DNA of 64,000 nucleotides from Terriglobus tenax (GTDB lineage: Bacteria > Acidobacteriota > Terriglobia > Terriglobales > Acidobacteriaceae). The DNA lies in NCBI RefSeq assembly GCF_025685395.1, contig NZ_JAGSYA010000003.1, positions 248,001 to 312,000 of the forward strand. The letters run 5' to 3'. Shown here piece by piece: positions 32,945 through 42,645 of this stretch; position 1 is the first letter of the stretch; each line of letters opens with the position of its first letter. Made by a program: the position numbers and the translations under genes. Below the pieces are notes generated by a model, which was given only the letters and a program-made list of their open reading frames with translations, did no database searches and had not been told where the DNA came from.

Positions 32945-35900
32945 TTAGAACGCCAGCTTGAGTCCGAACTGCAACTGGCGGGAGGTGGTGGCCGTGGCTG
33001 TAATCGCTCCTGCTGTGGGGGAGGCGACAACGGCGGCGGTCTGGTTGGCGTTGGTGCCCTGCGTCGGACCGCTGGTGAAGACGGTCGGGTTGGGCAGGGC
33101 AAAGTTGGTGTGATTCAGGAAGTTGAAGGCCTCGGCACGGAATTGCGCATTGACCCGCTCGCCTATCTTGAAGCGCTTGAGCAGGGAGAGGTCCACGTTG
33201 AGCATGTGCGGTCCGGTAAGAGTATCGCGGCCCAGGTTGCCGACTGCTCCATAATGCGGAGCACTGAAGGCGGCCGGGTTGAACCACTGGTTGACCGTGC
33301 GCGGGTAGAGCGAGCCGTTGAAGCTGGCGTTGACGTCCGGGCGGACTGGATTGCGTGTGTCTCCGCTGCCGGTGGGGTTGTAGCCAAGCTGCGGTGTGAA
33401 GGGGAAGCCCGAGAGCAAGTTGGCGATGCTGCTGATGGTCCAGCCATCCAGCGTCTGGCGGGCAATGCCGTTGCTCAGAGGATGGGCAAAGGGAATCTCC
33501 CAGGTGCCATTGATGTTGGCCGAGTGCTTGATGTCGGTGGCGGCGCGACCCCAGTCCAGCTTTGGGATGTACGGCACGCTGACGAAGGCGGGCGTGTTGG
33601 CGCTGACGCTGGTGTTCCAGGCCGAACCATTGTCGAGGTTGCGCGCCCAGGTGTAGTTGCCGCGAACCTGCAGGCCGTGCGCGAACTGGCGGCGGATGTC
33701 TACCTGCAGAGCTCCGTAGAAGCTGTTGGCGGCCGACCACCAGGAGGTCGTGTTCGCGACATTCGGATTCAGCTTGGTGGTGGTGGGGTAGTAGTAGCTG
33801 CCCGCGGCCAGGGTTGAGGGGCAGGCCGGGTTGGGGCACCGCACCATGGCCGGCTCATTCAGGTCGCCGGAGACAACCTGGTGATAGCCGCGCGAGCCTA
33901 CATAGCCGATGGTGAGCGAGGTGTCTCTGGCGATCTGCTGCTCCACGCGCAACGACCATGCGATGACGGTCGGTGTGCGGATATCCGGCTGCACGTTCGA
34001 GGGCGAGATGAGCGAGCCGGAGGATGCCGTAGTGTTGGGCGTGATGGCCAGGCTGGAGACGACGACGTTCTTGAAGGCAAGCGTGGTGTTGAAGGGAGCC
34101 ACCTGCGTCAGGCGGTAGTCCAGGTTGTCCAGCAGGGCGCGGTGCACGCCGGCGCCCAGGCGGATGGCGGTCTTGCCGCTGGCAAAGGGCGACCAGGAGA
34201 GGCCAAGGCGCGGCTCCGGAAGGAACTTCGCCTTGTTGTCTGAAAGCGCGTATTTGCCCACGGTGGGGTTGGTGGCGATGACCCAGTTCGTCAGGGCGTA
34301 GTTGGAGGCGCGGTTCTGCACCTCGCTCCAGTTGCTGGCGGATTCAAAGCGGAAGCCGGCGCGGATTTCGAGGCGGGGTGTAATGCGGAAGGTGTCTTCT
34401 ACGAAGCCCGCACCGAAGAGGGCGCGGAAGCCAAGCGCCGTGGGCGCGGGCACTACGCTGAAGGTGGCCACGTTGCCCTGCAGGAAGCTGGTGAGCGTGG
34501 AGAACGATGCTTGCCCGTACTGGTTCTGTGCCAGCAGGTCATTGGCCTGCAGACGCTGCAGCCATCCCCCGGCTTCAATCTGGTGACGACCCACGGTGTA
34601 GAAGACATGGTCATCGAAGGTGAACAGGTTGCGCACGGCGCGGTTGTTGGAGCCGACGTTCGCTCCGGCAGTGGAGACCTGCGAGGCTCCGTTTGATGCG
34701 GTGGAGCCGGCGATGACGATGGCTCCTACAGGCTTACCGGTGACGAACGGGGTAACACCGTCGACGGGAACTTCTCCGGTGAAGTAGAAGGCGGCGCGTG
34801 AGTAACCAAAGCGCGCGGTGTTCAGCAGGCGCGGGGAGAAGACGTGCTGCTCCTGCAGGCTGATCACCTGCTCGCGCAGGTCTTCTCCAATCCACGAGAG
34901 CGGGTTGACGGTGGGCGTGTGCGCCGTGGAGTCGTCGACCGTGTAGACAGAGAAGAACTGATCCTTGCTGCCGATATTCCAGTCAAAGCGCGTGGTGCCG
35001 AAGTCTTCGCGAATGCGCTGCACGGGGTTGGAGTAGGCGTAGGCAAGGCCGGAGCCGATATCGGCTCCATTGGCCGTGGGCCACAGCTTCAGCAGGCTGG
35101 CGACTCCGGGAGCGACACCGACATAGGTTTCTCCGCCGGAAGAGTTGGGCAGATAGCCCTGGCGTGCGCGAGCGTTGGGAACGATGGCCTTGTTCGAGAG
35201 GCCGAGGTTCTGGCGGTAGCCCTCGTAGTTGGAGAAGAGCAGCAGCTTGTCCTTGCGGATAGGTCCGCCGATGGAGCCGCCGAAGTTATTGCGCTGGAAC
35301 TGCGGCAGGCGCTTGCCGTTCTCCTGTACCTGGTCAAAGTAATTGCGTGCATCCAGAGCGGAGTTGCGCAGGAACTCATACACATTGCCGTGGTACTGGT
35401 TGGTGCCGCTGGCGGTCACGATGGAGATCTGCGCGCCCTGGCGCTTGCCGTAGTTGGCGCCGTAGGTGTCGCTGATGACATTGAACTCGCGCACGGCATC
35501 GACGCCCAGCAACTGGCCGCTGGCGCCGCCGGGGGTCAGGTTGATCAGCGACGCTCCGGTGTATTCAATGCCGTTGAGCAGGAAGAGATTGTCCTGAGGG
35601 CGGCGGCCGGAGACGGAGAACATGGCGCCGACCGAGGAGTTCGACGTGCCGACCGAACCGGAGCGCTGGCCGGTGTAGTTGACCACGCTGGGGTTGAGCG
35701 TGATGAGCTGGTCGTAGGAGCGTCCGTTCAGCGGCAGCTCTTTCACGGCGCGCTCGTCCACAAGGCCGGCTGTCTGCTGCGTGGAGAGGTTGACGACCGG
35801 AGGTGTGTCCACCACGGAGACAGCCTGCGAGACCTCGCCGACGGTCAGGCGGATGTCGGCGGTCACCGCCTGGCCAACCACGACCTTGATGCCGGTGAGG

Positions 35901-36169
35901 GACTGCTGGGCGAAGCCATCTTTTACCGCCGAGACCGCCCAGCTTCCGATGGTGACGGAGGGAGCGGAGTAGCGGCCCTGGCCGTCGGTGGCCAGGTGGC
36001 GTTCGGTGCCGGTCTCTTCATTGCGAACGGTCACGGTCGCTCCGGAGACGGCGGCGCCACTGGCGTCCGTGATGGTACCGGCGATGGAGCCGCCTACCAT
36101 CTGGGCGTGAAGAAGAGCGAAGCTGGCGAATAGCAATAGAAACGCGGCGATATAAGCGATACGGCGCAT
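32945..36169 (-). CDS. TonB-dependent receptor, Oar-like, with N-terminal carboxypeptidase-regulatory domain
   Basis: The 1074-residue outer-membrane protein has a signal peptide and then a Cna-B-like regulatory domain over about residues 25-110 (G-S-I-A-G-T-I-T-D-A-S-G-A-A-V-S-G-A-T-V). A plug domain follows (about 125-260, with R-R-P-Q-D-N-L-F-L-L-N-G-I-E) and then a large beta-barrel ending in a terminal aromatic (L-A-F). This is the Oar/SusC-like layout abundant in Acidobacteria, used for TonB-driven uptake of large substrates. The ligand is unknown. An AGGAGA ribosome-binding site precedes the ATG. It is downstream of the YeiH gene but a hairpin separates them. Confidence 0.92.
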   Translation of the reverse strand: MRRIAYIAAFLLLFASFALLHAQMVGGSIAGTITDASGAAVSGATVTVRNEETGTERHLATDGQGRYSAPSVTIGSWAVSAVKDGFAQQSLTGIKVVVGQAVTADIRLTVGEVSQAVSVVDTPPVVNLSTQQTAGLVDERAVKELPLNGRSYDQLITLNPSVVNYTGQRSGSVGTSNSSVGAMFSVSGRRPQDNLFLLNGIEYTGASLINLTPGGASGQLLGVDAVREFNVISDTYGANYGKRQGAQISIVTASGTNQYHGNVYEFLRNSALDARNYFDQVQENGKRLPQFQRNNFGGSIGGPIRKDKLLLFSNYEGYRQNLGLSNKAIVPNARARQGYLPNSSGGETYVGVAPGVASLLKLWPTANGADIGSGLAYAYSNPVQRIREDFGTTRFDWNIGSKDQFFSVYTVDDSTAHTPTVNPLSWIGEDLREQVISLQEQHVFSPRLLNTARFGYSRAAFYFTGEVPVDGVTPFVTGKPVGAIVIAGSTASNGASQVSTAGANVGSNNRAVRNLFTFDDHVFYTVGRHQIEAGGWLQRLQANDLLAQNQYGQASFSTLTSFLQGNVATFSVVPAPTALGFRALFGAGFVEDTFRITPRLEIRAGFRFESASNWSEVQNRASNYALTNWVIATNPTVGKYALSDNKAKFLPEPRLGLSWSPFASGKTAIRLGAGVHRALLDNLDYRLTQVAPFNTTLAFKNVVVSSLAITPNTTASSGSLISPSNVQPDIRTPTVIAWSLRVEQQIARDTSLTIGYVGSRGYHQVVSGDLNEPAMVRCPNPACPSTLAAGSYYYPTTTKLNPNVANTTSWWSAANSFYGALQVDIRRQFAHGLQVRGNYTWARNLDNGSAWNTSVSANTPAFVSVPYIPKLDWGRAATDIKHSANINGTWEIPFAHPLSNGIARQTLDGWTISSIANLLSGFPFTPQLGYNPTGSGDTRNPVRPDVNASFNGSLYPRTVNQWFNPAAFSAPHYGAVGNLGRDTLTGPHMLNVDLSLLKRFKIGERVNAQFRAEAFNFLNHTNFALPNPTVFTSGPTQGTNANQTAAVVASPTAGAITATATTSRQLQFGLKLAF

Positions 36170-36263
36170 GGAGTGGATCTCCTAGTCGTTGTATGTGCGC
36201 GTCCGCTGGATGCGGCGCGGCTTTGAGATGGAATGGAAAGGTGTGCCAGAAAAACGAAGATGC

Positions 36264-36284
36264 GCTGACCCGAAGCGGGTTAGC
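36264..36284 (-). terminator. Short hairpin downstream of the YeiH-family gene
   Basis: GCTGACCCG and CGGGTTAGC pair through 9 bp (one G-U) around a 3-base loop. On the minus strand it precedes a TTCGTTTTT run. It may end the YeiH operon before the receptor gene. Confidence 0.5.
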
Positions 36285-36308
36285 GACAACAACAGGACTC
36301 GCGGCGCA

Positions 36309-37397
36309 TTACTGAATGCCTCCGCGGATAAACGTCCAGTAGACGAGCCCGAGGGTGACCAGGGCGATGAAAATTTCGCCGAGGACCCCGACCACGATGG
36401 GCCGCCATCCCTGCCCGACCAGGTCGCGCAGGTTGGTGCGCAGGCCAACGCCCGCAAATGCGGGAAGAAAGGCCCAGCGCGAAAGATTGCTCAGGCTGGT
36501 GAGCTGCGTCGCGGTAAAGAAGTGCGACGAGGCCAGTACCGAGATGATGAGGAAGCCGAGGATGAACTTGGGGAACTTCTGCCAGAGGAAGAGCGCTTTG
36601 TTCGGAACATCCGGCGCCTGTCCCTTAGAAGCCCAATAGACGGCATAGCCCAGAACGACGAAGCCGATGAAGGCCGAGCGCGCGGTCTTGGCCAGGATGG
36701 CGAAGCGTCCGGCGACATCGCCGTAGAGAGCGCCGGTGACGGTGGCCTCGGCGGTGTTGTCGACGGCAAGGCCCGTCCAGATACCGTAGCTCTCCTGGCT
36801 CAGGTGCAGCAGGTGGCCGATGGTGGGGAAAGTAAACAGGGCAATCGCACCCAGGGTCAGAATGGCGGCGATGGAGGTGGAGACATCTTCCTCTTCCGGA
36901 TCAATGGCTCCGCGCGCAGCCATGATGGCGGTAACGCCGCAGATCGACGAACCGATGGCCAGCAGCGAGGTGAGCTTGGGGCGCAGACCGAAGATGCGGC
37001 CAAGCAGCGTCATCACCGTAAGCGAGAGCGCCAGCTCAATGAAGACCAGAATCATGGAGACGCTGCCGATGCGCATGACATCGGAGAAGACAAAACGCGC
37101 GCCCACCAGCACGATGCCGAGCTTCAGCCAGAGCTCATAGGTGGCGACACCGGGGCGGAAGATGGACTTCACGCCGATGGTGTTGGAGACGATCAGCCCA
37201 AGAATGATAGCCCAGAGAACGTATTCGATCTGGGGCAGGCGCAGATGATACTCGGTGCGCAGATGGGTGAATTCATGTTCCAGGAACTTGCCCAGGAAGC
37301 CGATGCCGAACAGAAGAGCCATGCCGGGGAGAAGGCGCACGAATGCCTTCACGACAGAGCCGGAGCTCTGCGTGTGGGTCTCCGGAGATGCAAGCAT
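36309..37397 (-). CDS. YeiH/UPF0324-family putative sulfur-compound transporter
   Basis: The 362-residue protein has about ten membrane segments and the UPF0324 signature I-G-S-S-I-C-G-V-T-A-I-M-A-A-R-G-A-I at the centre. A-V-D-N-T-A-E-A-T-V-T-G-A and G-V-G-L-R-T-N-L lie later. YeiH relatives are called putative sulfate or sulfite exporters; in several bacteria they are tied to sulfur-compound stress or taurine use. The ATG at 37397 is chosen; a TTG at 37412 is an alternative. It lies 25 bases after a 42-codon membrane microprotein gene and behind a cysteine-codon leader with an intrinsic terminator, which supports a sulfur role. Transport direction and substrate are open. Confidence 0.88.
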   Translation of the reverse strand: MLASPETHTQSSGSVVKAFVRLLPGMALLFGIGFLGKFLEHEFTHLRTEYHLRLPQIEYVLWAIILGLIVSNTIGVKSIFRPGVATYELWLKLGIVLVGARFVFSDVMRIGSVSMILVFIELALSLTVMTLLGRIFGLRPKLTSLLAIGSSICGVTAIMAARGAIDPEEEDVSTSIAAILTLGAIALFTFPTIGHLLHLSQESYGIWTGLAVDNTAEATVTGALYGDVAGRFAILAKTARSAFIGFVVLGYAVYWASKGQAPDVPNKALFLWQKFPKFILGFLIISVLASSHFFTATQLTSLSNLSRWAFLPAFAGVGLRTNLRDLVGQGWRPIVVGVLGEIFIALVTLGLVYWTFIRGGIQ

Positions 37398-37422
37398 TGT
37401 CGGCACGGTCAACTGTCGAAAA

Positions 37423-37551
37423 TTAGAAGCTGATGTGCGGAACTACATCGAGGCGGACCAGCACGGCCAGCGCCAGAGCGATGCCGATGGCCAGCATGTC
37501 GATGACGGCGGTATTGTGCTTTGCTGCCTTGGTCGTGGGATTCGGTGACAT
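37423..37551 (-). CDS. 42-residue single-span membrane microprotein
   Basis: This ORF has a strong AAGGAG site about nine bases before its ATG, the best ribosome-binding site in the operon. The product has a polar, basic N-terminus (M-S-P-N-P-T-T-K-A-A-K-H) and one hydrophobic helix (I-D-M-L-A-I-G-I-A-L-A-L-A-V-L-V), ending V-P-H-I-S-F. It sits between the attenuator and the YeiH-family gene on the same strand, 25 bases from the latter. It may be an accessory subunit of the transporter or a translational coupler. I do not recognise a family. Confidence 0.65.
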   Translation of the reverse strand: MSPNPTTKAAKHNTAVIDMLAIGIALALAVLVRLDVVPHISF

Positions 37552-37600
37552 TTCTTTTCGGCTCCTTACCGTGATGCCTGGTGCTCACGATGCGCCGGAA

Positions 37601-37641
37601 AGAGAAAACCCACGCATCGCTCTGTTGGCTGATGCGTGGGT
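37601..37641 (-). terminator. Intrinsic terminator of the cysteine attenuator
   Basis: On the minus strand ACCCACGCATC (37641-37631), a 12-base loop and GATGCGTGGGT (37618-37608) form a perfect 11-bp stem followed by TTTTCTCT. It lies 40 bases after the stop of the Cys-rich leader ORF and before the 42-codon gene, so it can only act as an attenuator inside this transcript. A separate palindrome AAGCTTA-TTC-TAAGCTT (37658-37674) lies between the leader and the terminator. Confidence 0.85.
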
Positions 37642-37681
37642 CCTGAATCTTGAGTGGAAGCTTATTCTAAGCTTCGTCGTA

Positions 37682-37759
37682 TCAGGCTTGAACCGCGCAG
37701 CAGCATACGCTGTCGCAACAAACGCAACAGGTACAGGCAGCGGTGGGGTTCATAACCAT
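37682..37759 (-). CDS. Cysteine-rich leader peptide (25 aa, 8 Cys), probably leaderless
   Basis: The ORF reads M-V-M-N-P-T-A-A followed by a block with cysteines at positions 9, 11, 12, 14, 15, 19, 20 and 21, then A-V-Q-A and stop. Eight of 25 codons are Cys (TGT or TGC). It has no Shine-Dalgarno site, but its ATG lies 7 bases after a TAACCT -10 box, so the mRNA would start at or next to the ATG. The intrinsic terminator begins 40 bases after its stop. This is the arrangement of a cysteine-sensing transcription attenuator. The peptide itself probably has no other function, although a metal-binding role cannot be excluded. Confidence 0.7.
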   Translation of the reverse strand: MVMNPTAACTCCVCCDSVCCCAVQA

Positions 37760-37766
37760 TACTGAG

Positions 37767-37795
37767 AGGTTAGAGTTTCTTCGGTTTTTCGTCAA
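37767..37795 (-). promoter_or_regulatory. Promoter of the Cys-leader/YeiH operon
   Basis: TTGACG at 37795-37790 (five of six consensus -35 bases), a 17-base spacer and TAACCT at 37772-37767 lie on the minus strand. The predicted transcription start coincides with the ATG of the leader peptide at 37759. Confidence 0.6.
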
Positions 37796-39553: not shown

Positions 39554-40996
39554 TTATTTGGTTGCTTCTTTTACGGGAAAGCTGACCGTGAACTCGGTTT
39601 TTCCGGGGGCGGAGGTAAAGCTGATCAGGCCTCCGGCCTGCTCTGCGATGCGTTGTGCGATGCCCAGGCCGAGACCTGTGCCAACGCCCATGGGCTTGGT
39701 CGTAAAGAAGGTCTCGAAGATCTTGTCTTGGTCCTCGGGGGCAATGCCCGTGCCGTTGTCGCCGATGGTGACGAAGATGCGGCTATCCTTGATGCCGGTC
39801 GTAACGGTGAGCTGTCCTCCATCGGAGGGAGCGGCATCGATGGCATTGTCCAGCAGGTTGGTCCAGATCTGATTCAGGCCGGCGGCATTGACGGCGAGAG
39901 GCGGCAGACCGCCGCCGAAGTTCTTCTTGATGCTGAGCTGTTTCTCGTAGATCTTGTGCTTCAAAAGAATGAGCGTGGCATGCACGCTCTCGTTCAGATC
40001 AATCGATTGGCCGCTCTTGCCTTCGTAGGTATAGGTCTTGACTGCTTTGACGAGGCCGGTAATGCGGGTAATGCTCTCTTCTACGGTGCCAACCAGTTGC
40101 ATGGAGCTGACCATGGAGGCCAGCCACTCCAGAATGTTGCTGAGAGAGTGTTTCCCGTCCTGCAGAGCCTCAGCCTTCAGGCATTCCAGGTCAAAGGTCG
40201 TAATTCCGATGGAGGCGAGAATCGGCGCCAGCTTCCAGGCATTGGTCTGGTTGTTGCTTTCCAGCCACTCGGCCAGTTCTTCCTCGCGGTCTGCCTCTTC
40301 CAGCGAGCTCATGCACTGCGGCCGTTCGGTGGCAAAGGCACGTTCCTGCAGGGCCCAGACGCATTGCAACTCGGGCTTCTCGTTGTCTTCGCTGGAAAAC
40401 GCCTTGGTGAGCTCGTGCATGCGGGCCAGGTTGGCGCGGAGCTGGCTGGCGGCGCGGCTGGCAGCTGCTCCGGGGTTATTCAGTTCATGCATCAGGCCGG
40501 CGGTCAGCGTGCCTAGAGCGGCCAGCTTCTCCTCCTGGATGTCGCGGTGCTGGGCTCCGCGCAGACGCTCATTCAACTGGCCCAGGATGAAGTTACGCAT
40601 GGCGGGGCAGCGCGCCATCAAGCCCCAGAACTCTTCCTCGGTGTAGCTGAGGATCATGCAGTCTTCCACCGCTTCGGCTGTGACCGGGATCGCTTGCCGG
40701 GTCAGAAGGGCGTACTCGCCCATCACGGCACCGGCCTCGATGGTGGCCACTGTCTGTGCCTGCTTGGCGCCGTACTGGTAGAAGCTACGGACCTTGCCTT
40801 CCAGCAGAATGCCGAAGAGCGTGAGCTTCTCTCCCTGCTGGGCAAGAATCTGCCCGGCGGAGACATGAACGACAGGAGCTGAAGCGATGCACTCGAGCTC
40901 CTGGTCGGACAGCGTGGAGAAGACAGGCAGAGCACGAAGGCGCTGGGCGACTTCGGAAGGGGACAGAGAGACGGTCTGGGTTAGGTCAATCATCAT
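39554..40996 (-). CDS. Cytoplasmic histidine kinase with cyclic-nucleotide-binding-like sensor domain
   Basis: This 480-residue kinase has no membrane segment. The N-terminal 140 residues match a cNMP-binding/CRP-like beta-roll (E-G-K-V-R-S-F-Y, G-A-V-M-G-E-Y-A-L-L). Next comes a dimerisation region with the phosphorylatable His170 (L-T-A-G-L-M-H-E-L-N-N-P), a long helical insertion, and an ATPase domain (N-L-L-D-N-A-I-D-A, G-D-N-G-T-G-I, G-V-G-T-G-L-G-L). The gene overlaps the upstream REC-oxidoreductase gene by four bases (ATGA), so the two are co-translated and surely work together. The signal could be a nucleotide or a redox state passed from the partner. Confidence 0.9.
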   Translation of the reverse strand: MMIDLTQTVSLSPSEVAQRLRALPVFSTLSDQELECIASAPVVHVSAGQILAQQGEKLTLFGILLEGKVRSFYQYGAKQAQTVATIEAGAVMGEYALLTRQAIPVTAEAVEDCMILSYTEEEFWGLMARCPAMRNFILGQLNERLRGAQHRDIQEEKLAALGTLTAGLMHELNNPGAAASRAASQLRANLARMHELTKAFSSEDNEKPELQCVWALQERAFATERPQCMSSLEEADREEELAEWLESNNQTNAWKLAPILASIGITTFDLECLKAEALQDGKHSLSNILEWLASMVSSMQLVGTVEESITRITGLVKAVKTYTYEGKSGQSIDLNESVHATLILLKHKIYEKQLSIKKNFGGGLPPLAVNAAGLNQIWTNLLDNAIDAAPSDGGQLTVTTGIKDSRIFVTIGDNGTGIAPEDQDKIFETFFTTKPMGVGTGLGLGIAQRIAEQAGGLISFTSAPGKTEFTVSFPVKEATK

Positions 40997-42645
40997 CGGG
41001 ACATGTTTGCTAGGTATTGGTGTACAAACTGCACTGCAATGGAGCCTTCACCTACGGCGGAGGCGCAACGTTTGACGGAACCATGACGGACATCGCCCGC
41101 CACAAAGATTCCGGGGACGCTGCTTTCCAGAAGGAACGGGTCGCGGTCCATCTTGAGCTTGCCGCGAAGGTCTGCCGGAAGATCAGGGCCGGCCAGGATG
41201 AAGCCGCGCTCGTCTTTCAACACGGTGGAGGGCAGCCAGTCCGTCTTCGGGGCAGCCCCGATAAAGATGAAGACCGACGAGGTGGAACGCTTGTGCTCGC
41301 CCTCTTTGCAGCGGACCGTGATGCTCTCCAGGTGACCATCGCCGTCAAAGCCGATGATCTCGGTGCAGGTCTCTACAACGATGTTGGGGCGGGAAGCGAT
41401 CTGGTCAATCAGGTACTTGGACATCGACTTCTCAAGCCCATCGCCACGGACGATCATGCGGACCGAGGCAGCATAGTTGGAGAAGTGCATGGCCGCCTGT
41501 CCGGCGGAATTGGCTCCGCCGACGATATAGACCTCTTCGTTAGCGCAGGCCATCGCCTCGCTCATGGAAGCGCCGTAATAGACGCCGGCGCCGGTAAAGC
41601 GGTCGGCACCGGGGACTTCCAGCTTGCAATAGGAGACACCAGTGGCCACCAGGCAGACGTTGCAGGTGACTTCATTGCCGTCGGCCATGGTGATGATGTG
41701 GTAGTTGTTCTCGTTGCGCACGCAGGTGGCGCGCTGGGTCAGGAACTCCGCTCCAAGGCGGGTGGCCTGCAGGGTCGCGCGCTTGGCCAGTTCTTCGCCG
41801 GAGAGCCCCTGCGGGAAGCCGAGATAATTTTCGATGCGCGAGGAGGAACCAGCCTGTCCGCCGGGAGCGTCGGGTTCCACGATCAGGGTACGCAGCCCCT
41901 CGGAGGCGCCATAAACGCCCGCAGCCAATCCGGCCGGACCGGCACCGATAACCACCAGGTCATAAAACTGCTGCTCGGCCTGGGTGCGGAGGCCGATCTT
42001 CTGGGCCAGTTCCAGCAGGGTCGGCTGGACGAGAACGTCGCCATTGCCGAAGCAGACGACCGGAAGGTTCTTGGCGTCGAGCTTGTGATCTTCCAGCAGC
42101 TTTCCGGCTTCCGGATTCTGCTCCAGGTTAAGCCACTGATACTGCACGTGGTTACGGCCCAGGAACTCGCGAGTGGCGTGATCCTGCGGCGACCAGCGGG
42201 TGCCGATGACACGGAGGCCTTCAAAGGAAGGCTTGTAACCCTGCTGCCAGGCCATGAGAAGGTCGTCGAGGACGGGGTACAGCTTCTCCTCGGGCGGATC
42301 CCAGGGCTTGTTCAGGTAATAGTGAATTCTTGCGGAATTGATGGCCCGGATGGCGGCTTCAGTGTCCGCGTAGGCGGTCAGAAGCGCTCGCTTGGCCTCC
42401 GGGTAAAGGGGGATGACCTGTTCGAGCAGATCAACGCCGGTCATGCCGGGCATACGCTGATCCGAGAGAAAGAGGGCAACCTGTTCGCCGCGCTCCTTAA
42501 GCTGCTCAGCGGTATCGAGCGCGGCCTTGCCAGAGGCTGCGCGGAGAATGCGGTATTGCTGCCCGTAATGGCGGCGAAGATCCTGGACTACTGCTTCCAG
42601 AACGCTGGTATCGTCGTCGACTGCGAGGATAATTGGTTTGGGCAT
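40993..42645 (-). CDS. Fusion: receiver, glutaredoxin-like and thioredoxin-reductase-like domains
   Basis: The 550-residue protein has three parts. Residues 1-130 are a receiver domain with D10-D11-D12, phospho-acceptor Asp62 and Lys113. Residues 140-220 look like a glutaredoxin/thioredoxin fold whose CxxC position reads S-P-Q-D. Residues 226-550 are a thioredoxin-reductase-like flavoprotein with G-A-G-P-A-G (234-239) and a second dinucleotide motif V-G-G-A-N-S-A-G. The CxxC expected between the FAD and NAD parts is replaced by G-A-S-M-S-E-A. Without that disulfide it cannot act as a normal thioredoxin reductase. It may be an NAD(P)H-sensing output or input module for the kinase encoded next to it. 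Confidence 0.85.
   Translation of the reverse strand: MPKPIILAVDDDTSVLEAVVQDLRRHYGQQYRILRAASGKAALDTAEQLKERGEQVALFLSDQRMPGMTGVDLLEQVIPLYPEAKRALLTAYADTEAAIRAINSARIHYYLNKPWDPPEEKLYPVLDDLLMAWQQGYKPSFEGLRVIGTRWSPQDHATREFLGRNHVQYQWLNLEQNPEAGKLLEDHKLDAKNLPVVCFGNGDVLVQPTLLELAQKIGLRTQAEQQFYDLVVIGAGPAGLAAGVYGASEGLRTLIVEPDAPGGQAGSSSRIENYLGFPQGLSGEELAKRATLQATRLGAEFLTQRATCVRNENNYHIITMADGNEVTCNVCLVATGVSYCKLEVPGADRFTGAGVYYGASMSEAMACANEEVYIVGGANSAGQAAMHFSNYAASVRMIVRGDGLEKSMSKYLIDQIASRPNIVVETCTEIIGFDGDGHLESITVRCKEGEHKRSTSSVFIFIGAAPKTDWLPSTVLKDERGFILAGPDLPADLRGKLKMDRDPFLLESSVPGIFVAGDVRHGSVKRCASAVGEGSIAVQFVHQYLANMSR

Follow-up and report, generated by a model that had tools for sequence, protein, structure and literature searches.

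Predicted cysteine-codon attenuators with apparently leaderless reading frames at sulfur and thiol genes of Terriglobus tenax and related Acidobacteriota

The leader of a YeiH-family transporter operon in Terriglobus tenax is predicted to sense charged tRNA-Cys by way of ribosome-mediated transcription attenuation, and to be one of a regulon of cysteine leaders at sulfur and thiol genes; on comparative sequence analysis and folding models we place the probability of this reading at roughly 0.86. The initial annotation of the window (the entire 64,000-nt stretch of DNA analysed) had proposed a probable cysteine attenuator at this locus. Conservation, terminator covariation, promoter spacing and an antiterminator now support that proposal in silico, and the predicted set of targets is wider than envisaged there, covering sulfite reductase, cysD, peroxiredoxin, YeiH and TonB-receptor-like genes. 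The principle of such a device is already known; its occurrence in this phylum, the apparently leaderless leaders and their predicted spread over a sulfur regulon are what sets this case apart.

Architecture of the leader and the downstream genes

The features of the locus, all on the minus strand, are collected in Table 1. The promoter, the palindrome behind the stop codon and the perfect terminator stem of the initial annotation were recovered as described, as was its transporter target. Its count of eight cysteine codons in the leader reading frame also stands (codons 9, 11-12, 14-15 and 19-21), but seven of these, rather than five, lie within runs, in a CC/CC/CCC pattern. The 5' arm of the terminator is common to terminator and antiterminator, and the leader stretch folds 4.9 sd better than its shuffles. 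A simple promoter and terminator scan reported neither element in this stretch, the terminator because the loop limit of the scan is 8 nt, and the promoter because its -10 element has three of the six bases of TATAAT where the limit is four. A search with the curated covariance models of Rfam recovered nothing beyond a chance match to RRE at E 2.1, and a search of 12 related loci gave no match at E<=1.

Table 1. Features of the leader locus and of the genes behind it
Feature	Position	Strand	Basis
Sigma-70-type promoter of the leader RNA: -35 TTGACG (37795-37790), 17-nt spacer, -10 TAACCT (37772-37767), then 7 nt to the ATG at 37759	37767..37795	-	Read from sequence
Leader ORF, 25 codons with 8 Cys, MVMNPTAACTCCVCCDSVCCCAVQA and stop codon, predicted leaderless	37682..37759	-	Cys-rich ORF conserved 5' of YeiH in relatives
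Region 2, codons 19-24 (TGCTGCTGCGCGGTTCA), 5' half of the predicted antiterminator	37689..37705	-	Folding; RNAalifold
Hairpin GAAGCTT-AGAA-TAAGCTTC, 7-bp palindrome right after the stop codon, inside the predicted antiterminator	37657..37675	-	Palindrome of the initial annotation
Intrinsic terminator ACCCACGCATC-12 nt-GATGCGTGGGT	37599..37641 with T-rich tail (stem 37641-37608)	-	11-bp stem
Gene for 42-aa small membrane protein MSPNPTTKAAKHNTAVIDMLAIGIALALAVLVRLDVVPHISF, first past the terminator	37423..37551	-	ORF, conservation
YeiH-family transporter gene	36309..37412	-	PF03601, E 4e-73; TIGR00698 below cut-off
Second Cys leader MRRESCCCR and stop codon, start overlapping the YeiH stop (TAATG)	36280..36309	-	ORF
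Hairpin CGCT-a-ACCCG-ctt-CGGGT-c-AGCG across the end of the second leader	36263..36285	-	Sequence
Gene for TonB-dependent-receptor-like outer-membrane protein, past the second leader	32945..36169	-	PF25183, PF13620

The 42-aa product of the first gene had no match in a Pfam search. A loose pattern (core D-x-x-A-[IV]-x-[IL]-A-L-x-x-A-x-L-[IV]-R, the protein often ending in PW or F) detects a one-helix membrane protein of 35-50 aa directly 5' of YeiH in 71 of 81 loci, a count that includes a few false matches, e.g. L039 and L049. This protein is a possible small partner of YeiH. At the other end of the transporter gene, a cysteine-run ORF starting at the YeiH stop codon occurs at 11 of 80 loci, counting that of the window, as against 3/4000 shuffles. 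The ORF that follows is of TonB type in appearance in the window as well as in seven relatives. The start of the second leader within the YeiH stop codon might reflect translational coupling between the two. Another place in the same genome with a CCCR-stop sequence (L241) sits within a long ORF and was taken as chance.

Elsewhere in the window, one further ORF satisfies the cysteine-leader criterion given below (MAGWRCCRTCCRLC, plus strand, 14769); shuffled windows contain a mean of 0.1 such ORFs, and this one is probably due to chance. The window also encodes, at 40993-42645 on the minus strand, a 550-aa protein combining a response-regulator-receiver-like part with a thioredoxin-reductase-like part, whose gene adjoins a histidine-kinase-like gene and msrA.

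Conservation of cysteine leaders upstream of YeiH

Relatives of the transporter were gathered in two sets. The first gave matches at E<=0.001 in 92 of 150 family genomes, including 34 close places with E values of about 1e-125 or lower; the second comprises named genomes, of which the best 80 of 332 were retained. A cysteine leader was defined as an ORF of 8-45 aa 5' of YeiH with an ATG or GTG start, at least five cysteines and the pattern CC.{0,2}CC. The check proposed in the initial annotation, a search for such ORFs at the YeiH loci of relatives, recovered them on the coding strand of 33 of the 79 named loci with enough sequence (from the best 80 of 332), as opposed to 0/79 on the reverse strand and 0/1580 in dinucleotide shuffles of the upstream DNA. 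Elsewhere in the same loci the criterion is satisfied a single time in 687 kb-strands. The leader is present in 29 of the first 30 named loci (L032-L061), which belong to Terriglobus, Granulicella, Edaphobacter, Bryocella and acidobacteria lacking a genus name; the homologous leader of Terriglobus albidus DSM 26559 is L034. The CCxCC arrangement is common among YeiH leaders. The sole exception, L047, is a further copy of YeiH devoid of a cysteine leader. The neighbour of that copy is an APS kinase gene (PF01583), a link between YeiH and the assimilation of sulfate.

Leaders of type 1 number 38 in 86 loci (the 80 named loci and six picked from the first set). In a second type the ORF ends in CCC, with no more than a single further codon ahead of the stop; these occur at more distant YeiH genes in 11 of the 80 named loci, a count that excludes L036 and L062, though they are listed with them. 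Type 2 leaders mostly have no clear terminator, while L080 and L083 show a 6-bp hairpin ahead of T-rich DNA. At L079, from a MAG labelled as a gp2 acidobacterium, the cysteine leader MIHRACTCCYDGCCRACCRNSMPVCRCVSK lies 5' of YeiH, and its perfect 11-bp terminator (CCGCTCGCTGG..CCAGCGAGCGG) is unrelated to the others; this attenuator perhaps arose separately from them.

Just 5' of the leader, several loci additionally encode a distinct conserved RNA, about 100 nt long, which has a promoter to itself and a terminator similar to the attenuator's (L005 3091-3114, minus strand; L006 981-1004; L007 979-1002; L056 2499-2522; L057; L061; L188). Its exact core is present in 12 of 239 loci, some of which are the same place, so that about seven distinct genomes are represented. 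At L188 it is located away from YeiH. It is a candidate small RNA.

Promoter spacing fits a leaderless start

In all 36 leaders scored, a set that includes near duplicates, a promoter of the form TTGAC-N17-TANNNT (once N18) is positioned 3-11 nt 5' of the start codon, the distance being 6-9 nt in 30 of them. Shuffled upstream stretches have a promoter at that distance in 29 of 3600 cases. This spacing is that of a leaderless transcript; the leader ORF appears to be leaderless.

A conserved terminator and a competing antiterminator

Compensatory changes in the terminator, the other comparison suggested in the initial annotation, are evident in the YeiH set: 89.9% of the cells of the stem are paired and 20 are two-sided changes, with 0/500 shuffles as good. 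That annotation could draw no clear antiterminator; folding in silico now supplies one, formed by codons from the third cysteine cluster onward and the 5' arm of the terminator. The RNA folded for this purpose began where the second cysteine cluster ends and took in the whole 5' arm, being cut ahead of the 3' arm, in 32 distinct leaders (the 38 of type 1 minus L049, L010, L079 and L080, which lack an arm of the usual type or are of type 2, and minus the near duplicates L033 and L034). In the minimum free energy fold the ORF pairs with the 5' arm in 32/32 leaders, by 6-16 pairs and by at least nine in 31, and in 31/32 the codons involved start at the third cluster or later. L052 differs in that the arm is paired by codons immediately 3' of cluster 2. 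The ORF:arm pairing is matched by at most 4/100 shuffles in 28 of the 32 leaders and by 6-15/100 in L045, L050, L052 and L054.

The antiterminator helix surrounds the hairpin near or at the stop codon, and RNAalifold proposes its core pairing unprompted. The homologous hairpin often starts within the stop codon itself (TAAGC..GCTTA); 59% of its cells are paired in one register, and one clade uses another. On alignment A3, from which L003 and L037 were further omitted to leave 30 leaders, the antiterminator has 85.8% of its cells paired as against 17-47% in slid versions. In the YeiH set the antiterminator covaries weakly, with two-sided changes in five cells, for which 62/500 shuffles are as good and slides of -3 and +2 give six and seven; perhaps such changes are few because both sides are under other constraints.

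Exchange of arms between leaders provides another measure of the same pairing. Among YeiH leaders such swaps weaken it, with 27/20000 permutations as good as the natural combination, and 184/20000 when swaps are confined to clades. When arms are exchanged across 63 leaders from five gene families with unlike stems (ACCCACGCAACAGC, AACCCACCGCCAGA, AAAGCCCGCG, ACCCACCCG), none of 20000 permutations is as good (about 9 sd, the related sequences in this test not being independent), and the same holds for the 31 non-YeiH leaders by themselves (0/20000). For only six of the 63 arms is the own ORF better than all ORFs of other families. Controls with synonymous codons did not single out the ORF of the YeiH leaders (mean z -0.35; -1.0 with permuted codons); our guess is that this randomisation is uninformative because UGY-UGY itself pairs with GCAACAG.

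Dependence of the fold on ribosome position

Two models were used to place a ribosome on the 32 leaders. In model A only the RNA ahead of the ribosome pairs, and the last 4-10 nt of the 3' arm are still missing. The antiterminator then forms with a stall at cluster 1 or 2 in 25-28 of the 32, with a stall at cluster 3 in 5-6, and with the ribosome at the stop codon in none, the last since the rule places region 2 beneath the ribosome. The window's own leader has the antiterminator ahead only until about 6 nt before the end of the arm. In model B, where RNA upstream of the ribosome is also free to pair, the contrast between positions is weaker: the antiterminator forms in 25-28 of 32 for cluster 1, 20-25 for cluster 2, 14-18 for cluster 3, 15-18 for the stop codon and 13-16 with no ribosome. 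By computation the antiterminator, in which codons from cluster 3 onward pair with the 5' arm in 31/32 leaders, is exclusive with the terminator and depends on ribosome position. In equilibrium folds of the whole leader the terminator wins, the antiterminator being ahead in at most 1/32 in any ribosome state; we therefore take switching to be kinetic, as it is in the classical systems.

Cysteine leaders at other genes

The same genome has cysteine leaders at other sulfur and thiol genes, which were located by inspecting the DNA upstream of such genes. The sole gene with PF01077, taken as sulfite reductase and succeeded by a siroheme-synthase-like gene, is preceded by MQTVQNACCCTAVGRCA with a promoter TTGACT-N17-TAGCCT and a terminator GCCCGCG..CGCGGGC. 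The cysD gene, which carries PF01507, is preceded by MRRVFTDRCCCLL, with no clear terminator, and a peroxiredoxin gene by MTTHSANLRMCCRCCCCGPVRVCG, with a -10-like TAGGCT about 13 nt 5' of the ATG and a terminator formed by ACCCACCC and GGGTGGGT. The fourth of the four upstream regions scanned, that of the PAPS-reductase-family gene behind cysD (L234), contains no cysteine leader; L233 and L236 hold further short ORFs that pass the loose filter. A genome-wide search for CCxCC gave 93 places, of which 30 were examined, and among frames of at most 110 residues only the window copy was leader-like. We judge this search too narrow, since the peroxiredoxin leader matches the pattern and lies outside the 30 examined, and the sulfite reductase and cysD leaders have no CCxCC.

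A covariance model, R1, built from 30 YeiH leaders only, finds just the window copy clearly in this genome (the next match has E 0.1); at E<=0.01 it recognises leaders or partial leaders in 63 of the 250 family genomes. The genes behind 52 matches (L161-L213 minus L182) were annotated. Outside these are the 17 best matches (L144-L160, of which L159 and L160 alone were read) and nine others, seven of them at the weak end of the list and two of them partial matches next to YeiH leaders. Among the 52, the match precedes a gene of the nitrite/sulfite reductase family (PF03460, PF01077; taken as sulfite reductase) in 22, a peroxiredoxin gene (PF00578) in seven, a TonB-receptor-like gene in six (likeness to the window protein being judged by eye), YeiH in three, and in three more a gene whose product, by its protein sequence, we take to be CysD, a Pfam search with 70-aa pieces of these having given no match. 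One precedes a gene with an NAD-binding piece (PF13241), presumably siroheme-synthase-like, and ten precede other genes; in five of these ten the alignment to the model begins as late as position 30 or 35. Neither cysS nor a metal efflux gene was recognised among the 52.

The script used to detect cysteine ORFs found none in 11 of the 52 matches, L166 and L170 among these; behind the ORF in the remaining 41, a T-tailed hairpin is present in 33. The spacing of the cysteines varies across the regulon (CCC, CCCCCC, CCxCC, CxCC), as does the rest of the peptide. In the leaders of other families with a hairpin (31 from relatives and the sulfite reductase leader of the same genome), at least five ORF:arm pairs form in 30/32, with just nine beating 95% of their own shuffles and a mean z of 1.6. 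This test omits the YeiH rows, L163, for which the script picked the wrong ORF, and the peroxiredoxin leader of T. tenax, whose stem was missed by the hairpin script. The sulfite reductase leader of T. tenax has four such pairs, with 99/200 shuffles as good, and L210 has none.

Comparison with known attenuators

Runs of codons for one amino acid, an intrinsic terminator between the ORF and the gene, and targets in the pathway of that amino acid (sulfite reductase, CysD, YeiH) are the hallmarks of ribosome-mediated attenuators, and all are found here. As in thrL and hisL of Escherichia coli, a leader ORF rich in the regulatory codon is followed by a terminator, and the end of the ORF with the 5' arm makes the antiterminator. 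The leaders described here differ in having cysteine rather than threonine or histidine codons, sulfur-related targets, an apparently leaderless ORF, a host among the Acidobacteriota, and a hairpin at or near the stop codon that lies within the antiterminator. Under the rule of model B, thrL forms the antiterminator with the ribosome at early threonine codons and scores 0.0 at the stop codon, a cleaner contrast between ribosome positions than that of our leaders; the computed order of events is the same, including the dominance of the terminator at full length.

Leaderless polycysteine sORFs of mycobacteria have reportedly been described by Canestrari in 2020. Our comparison with the mycobacterial sORFs is by published description and claims no homology. 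These are likewise short ORFs with cysteine runs before sulfur genes, leaderless in M. smegmatis; they are described as acting on translation (PMC9031893) and as having no conserved terminator hairpins (PMC1262725), whereas most leaders here combine a terminator with a competing antiterminator. Leader peptides of cys operons, again with no terminators, have been predicted in Actinobacteria (PMC1262725). Closer in design is the uORFC-8-2 motif of Rhodobacterales, a predicted ribosome-mediated attenuator with tandem cysteine codons and an intrinsic terminator; it has the single target cysS and two cysteine codons, usually at positions 14-15, in alpha-proteobacteria (PMC8632094). By contrast, our leaders have 3-11 cysteines, a predicted leaderless start and genes of sulfur assimilation and transport as targets in Acidobacteriota. 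Leaderless genes have been predicted in Acidobacteria (PMC3160421), and in a 2010 survey almost none of the attenuators predicted for Acidobacteria had associated functions (PMC2965389). A literature search, mostly outside subscription papers, returned no report of a cysteine attenuator in Acidobacteriota.

Proposed mechanism and alternative explanations

We infer the events on the leader, from transcript start to gene expression at low cysteine, as follows. Transcription would start at, or a few nucleotides 5' of, the ATG, so that a 70S ribosome would load on the leaderless ORF. With Cys-tRNA in short supply, the ribosome would stall in cluster 1 or 2, and the unoccupied codons from cluster 3 on would engage the terminator's 5' arm in a helix enclosing the stop-codon hairpin; the terminator would therefore come too late, and the small-protein gene, YeiH and perhaps the TonB gene would be transcribed. 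When Cys-tRNA is ample, the ribosome would reach the stop codon, open the hairpin and mask region 2, allowing the terminator to form.

The same anatomy could in principle serve another logic, with a leader that acts mainly on translation, as described for the mycobacterial polycysteine leaders, or with stalls at cysteine codons that promote termination, the genes then being on when cysteine is ample. Such a response might suit an exporter of surplus sulfite or sulfate: the annotation of YeiH orthologs is that of putative sulfate exporters, and Salmonella requires YeiH to resist sulfite, the part played by YeiH in transport being left open there (PMC12880088). A stall at cluster 3 would indeed mask region 2 in model A. 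However, a ribosome short of Cys-tRNA meets clusters 1 and 2 first, where stalls in model A keep region 2 free, like leaders precede sulfite reductase and CysD, genes wanted on at low cysteine, and most cysteine ORFs of the wider set (33/41) have a T-tailed hairpin behind them. We therefore regard this other logic as unlikely. It is yet more improbable, in our estimate, that the cysteine-rich peptide is a nascent chain sensing metal (e.g. copper or zinc) or redox state rather than a codon-based sensor of Cys-tRNA. The frequency of CCxCC in YeiH leaders and a peroxiredoxin among the targets would fit such a sensor, but the variable cysteine spacing and peptide, the RNA-pairing role of the late codons and the sulfur and thiol character of the named targets, with no metal efflux gene among the 52 matches, speak against it. 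That a chance cysteine-rich ORF lies next to the ordinary terminator of an upstream RNA is scarcely credible given its recurrence on the coding strand alone and the further cysteine leaders at sulfur genes of the same genome.

Implications for sulfur metabolism in Acidobacteriota

With attenuation by charged tRNA-Cys as the preferred reading, we lean, at slightly better than even odds, towards a broader picture for Terriglobus and its relatives. In it, distributed leaderless tRNA-Cys attenuators, each having evolved around its own terminator, would act on activation by cysD, on sulfite reduction together with siroheme synthesis, on YeiH with a small membrane partner, on uptake or passage of a sulfur compound by a TonB-receptor route, and on peroxiredoxin, with YeiH acting under cysteine shortage and not as an overflow exporter. 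The YeiH attenuator itself would give the Acidobacteriota a specific, testable amino-acid attenuator whose alternative folds are spelled out, and the arrangement suggests that leaderless translation may serve as a tRNA sensor in combination with an intrinsic terminator. It would also connect cysteine supply with YeiH, a transporter that is poorly understood, and with a TonB-receptor-like gene, and it puts forward the 42-aa protein as a candidate small partner of YeiH.
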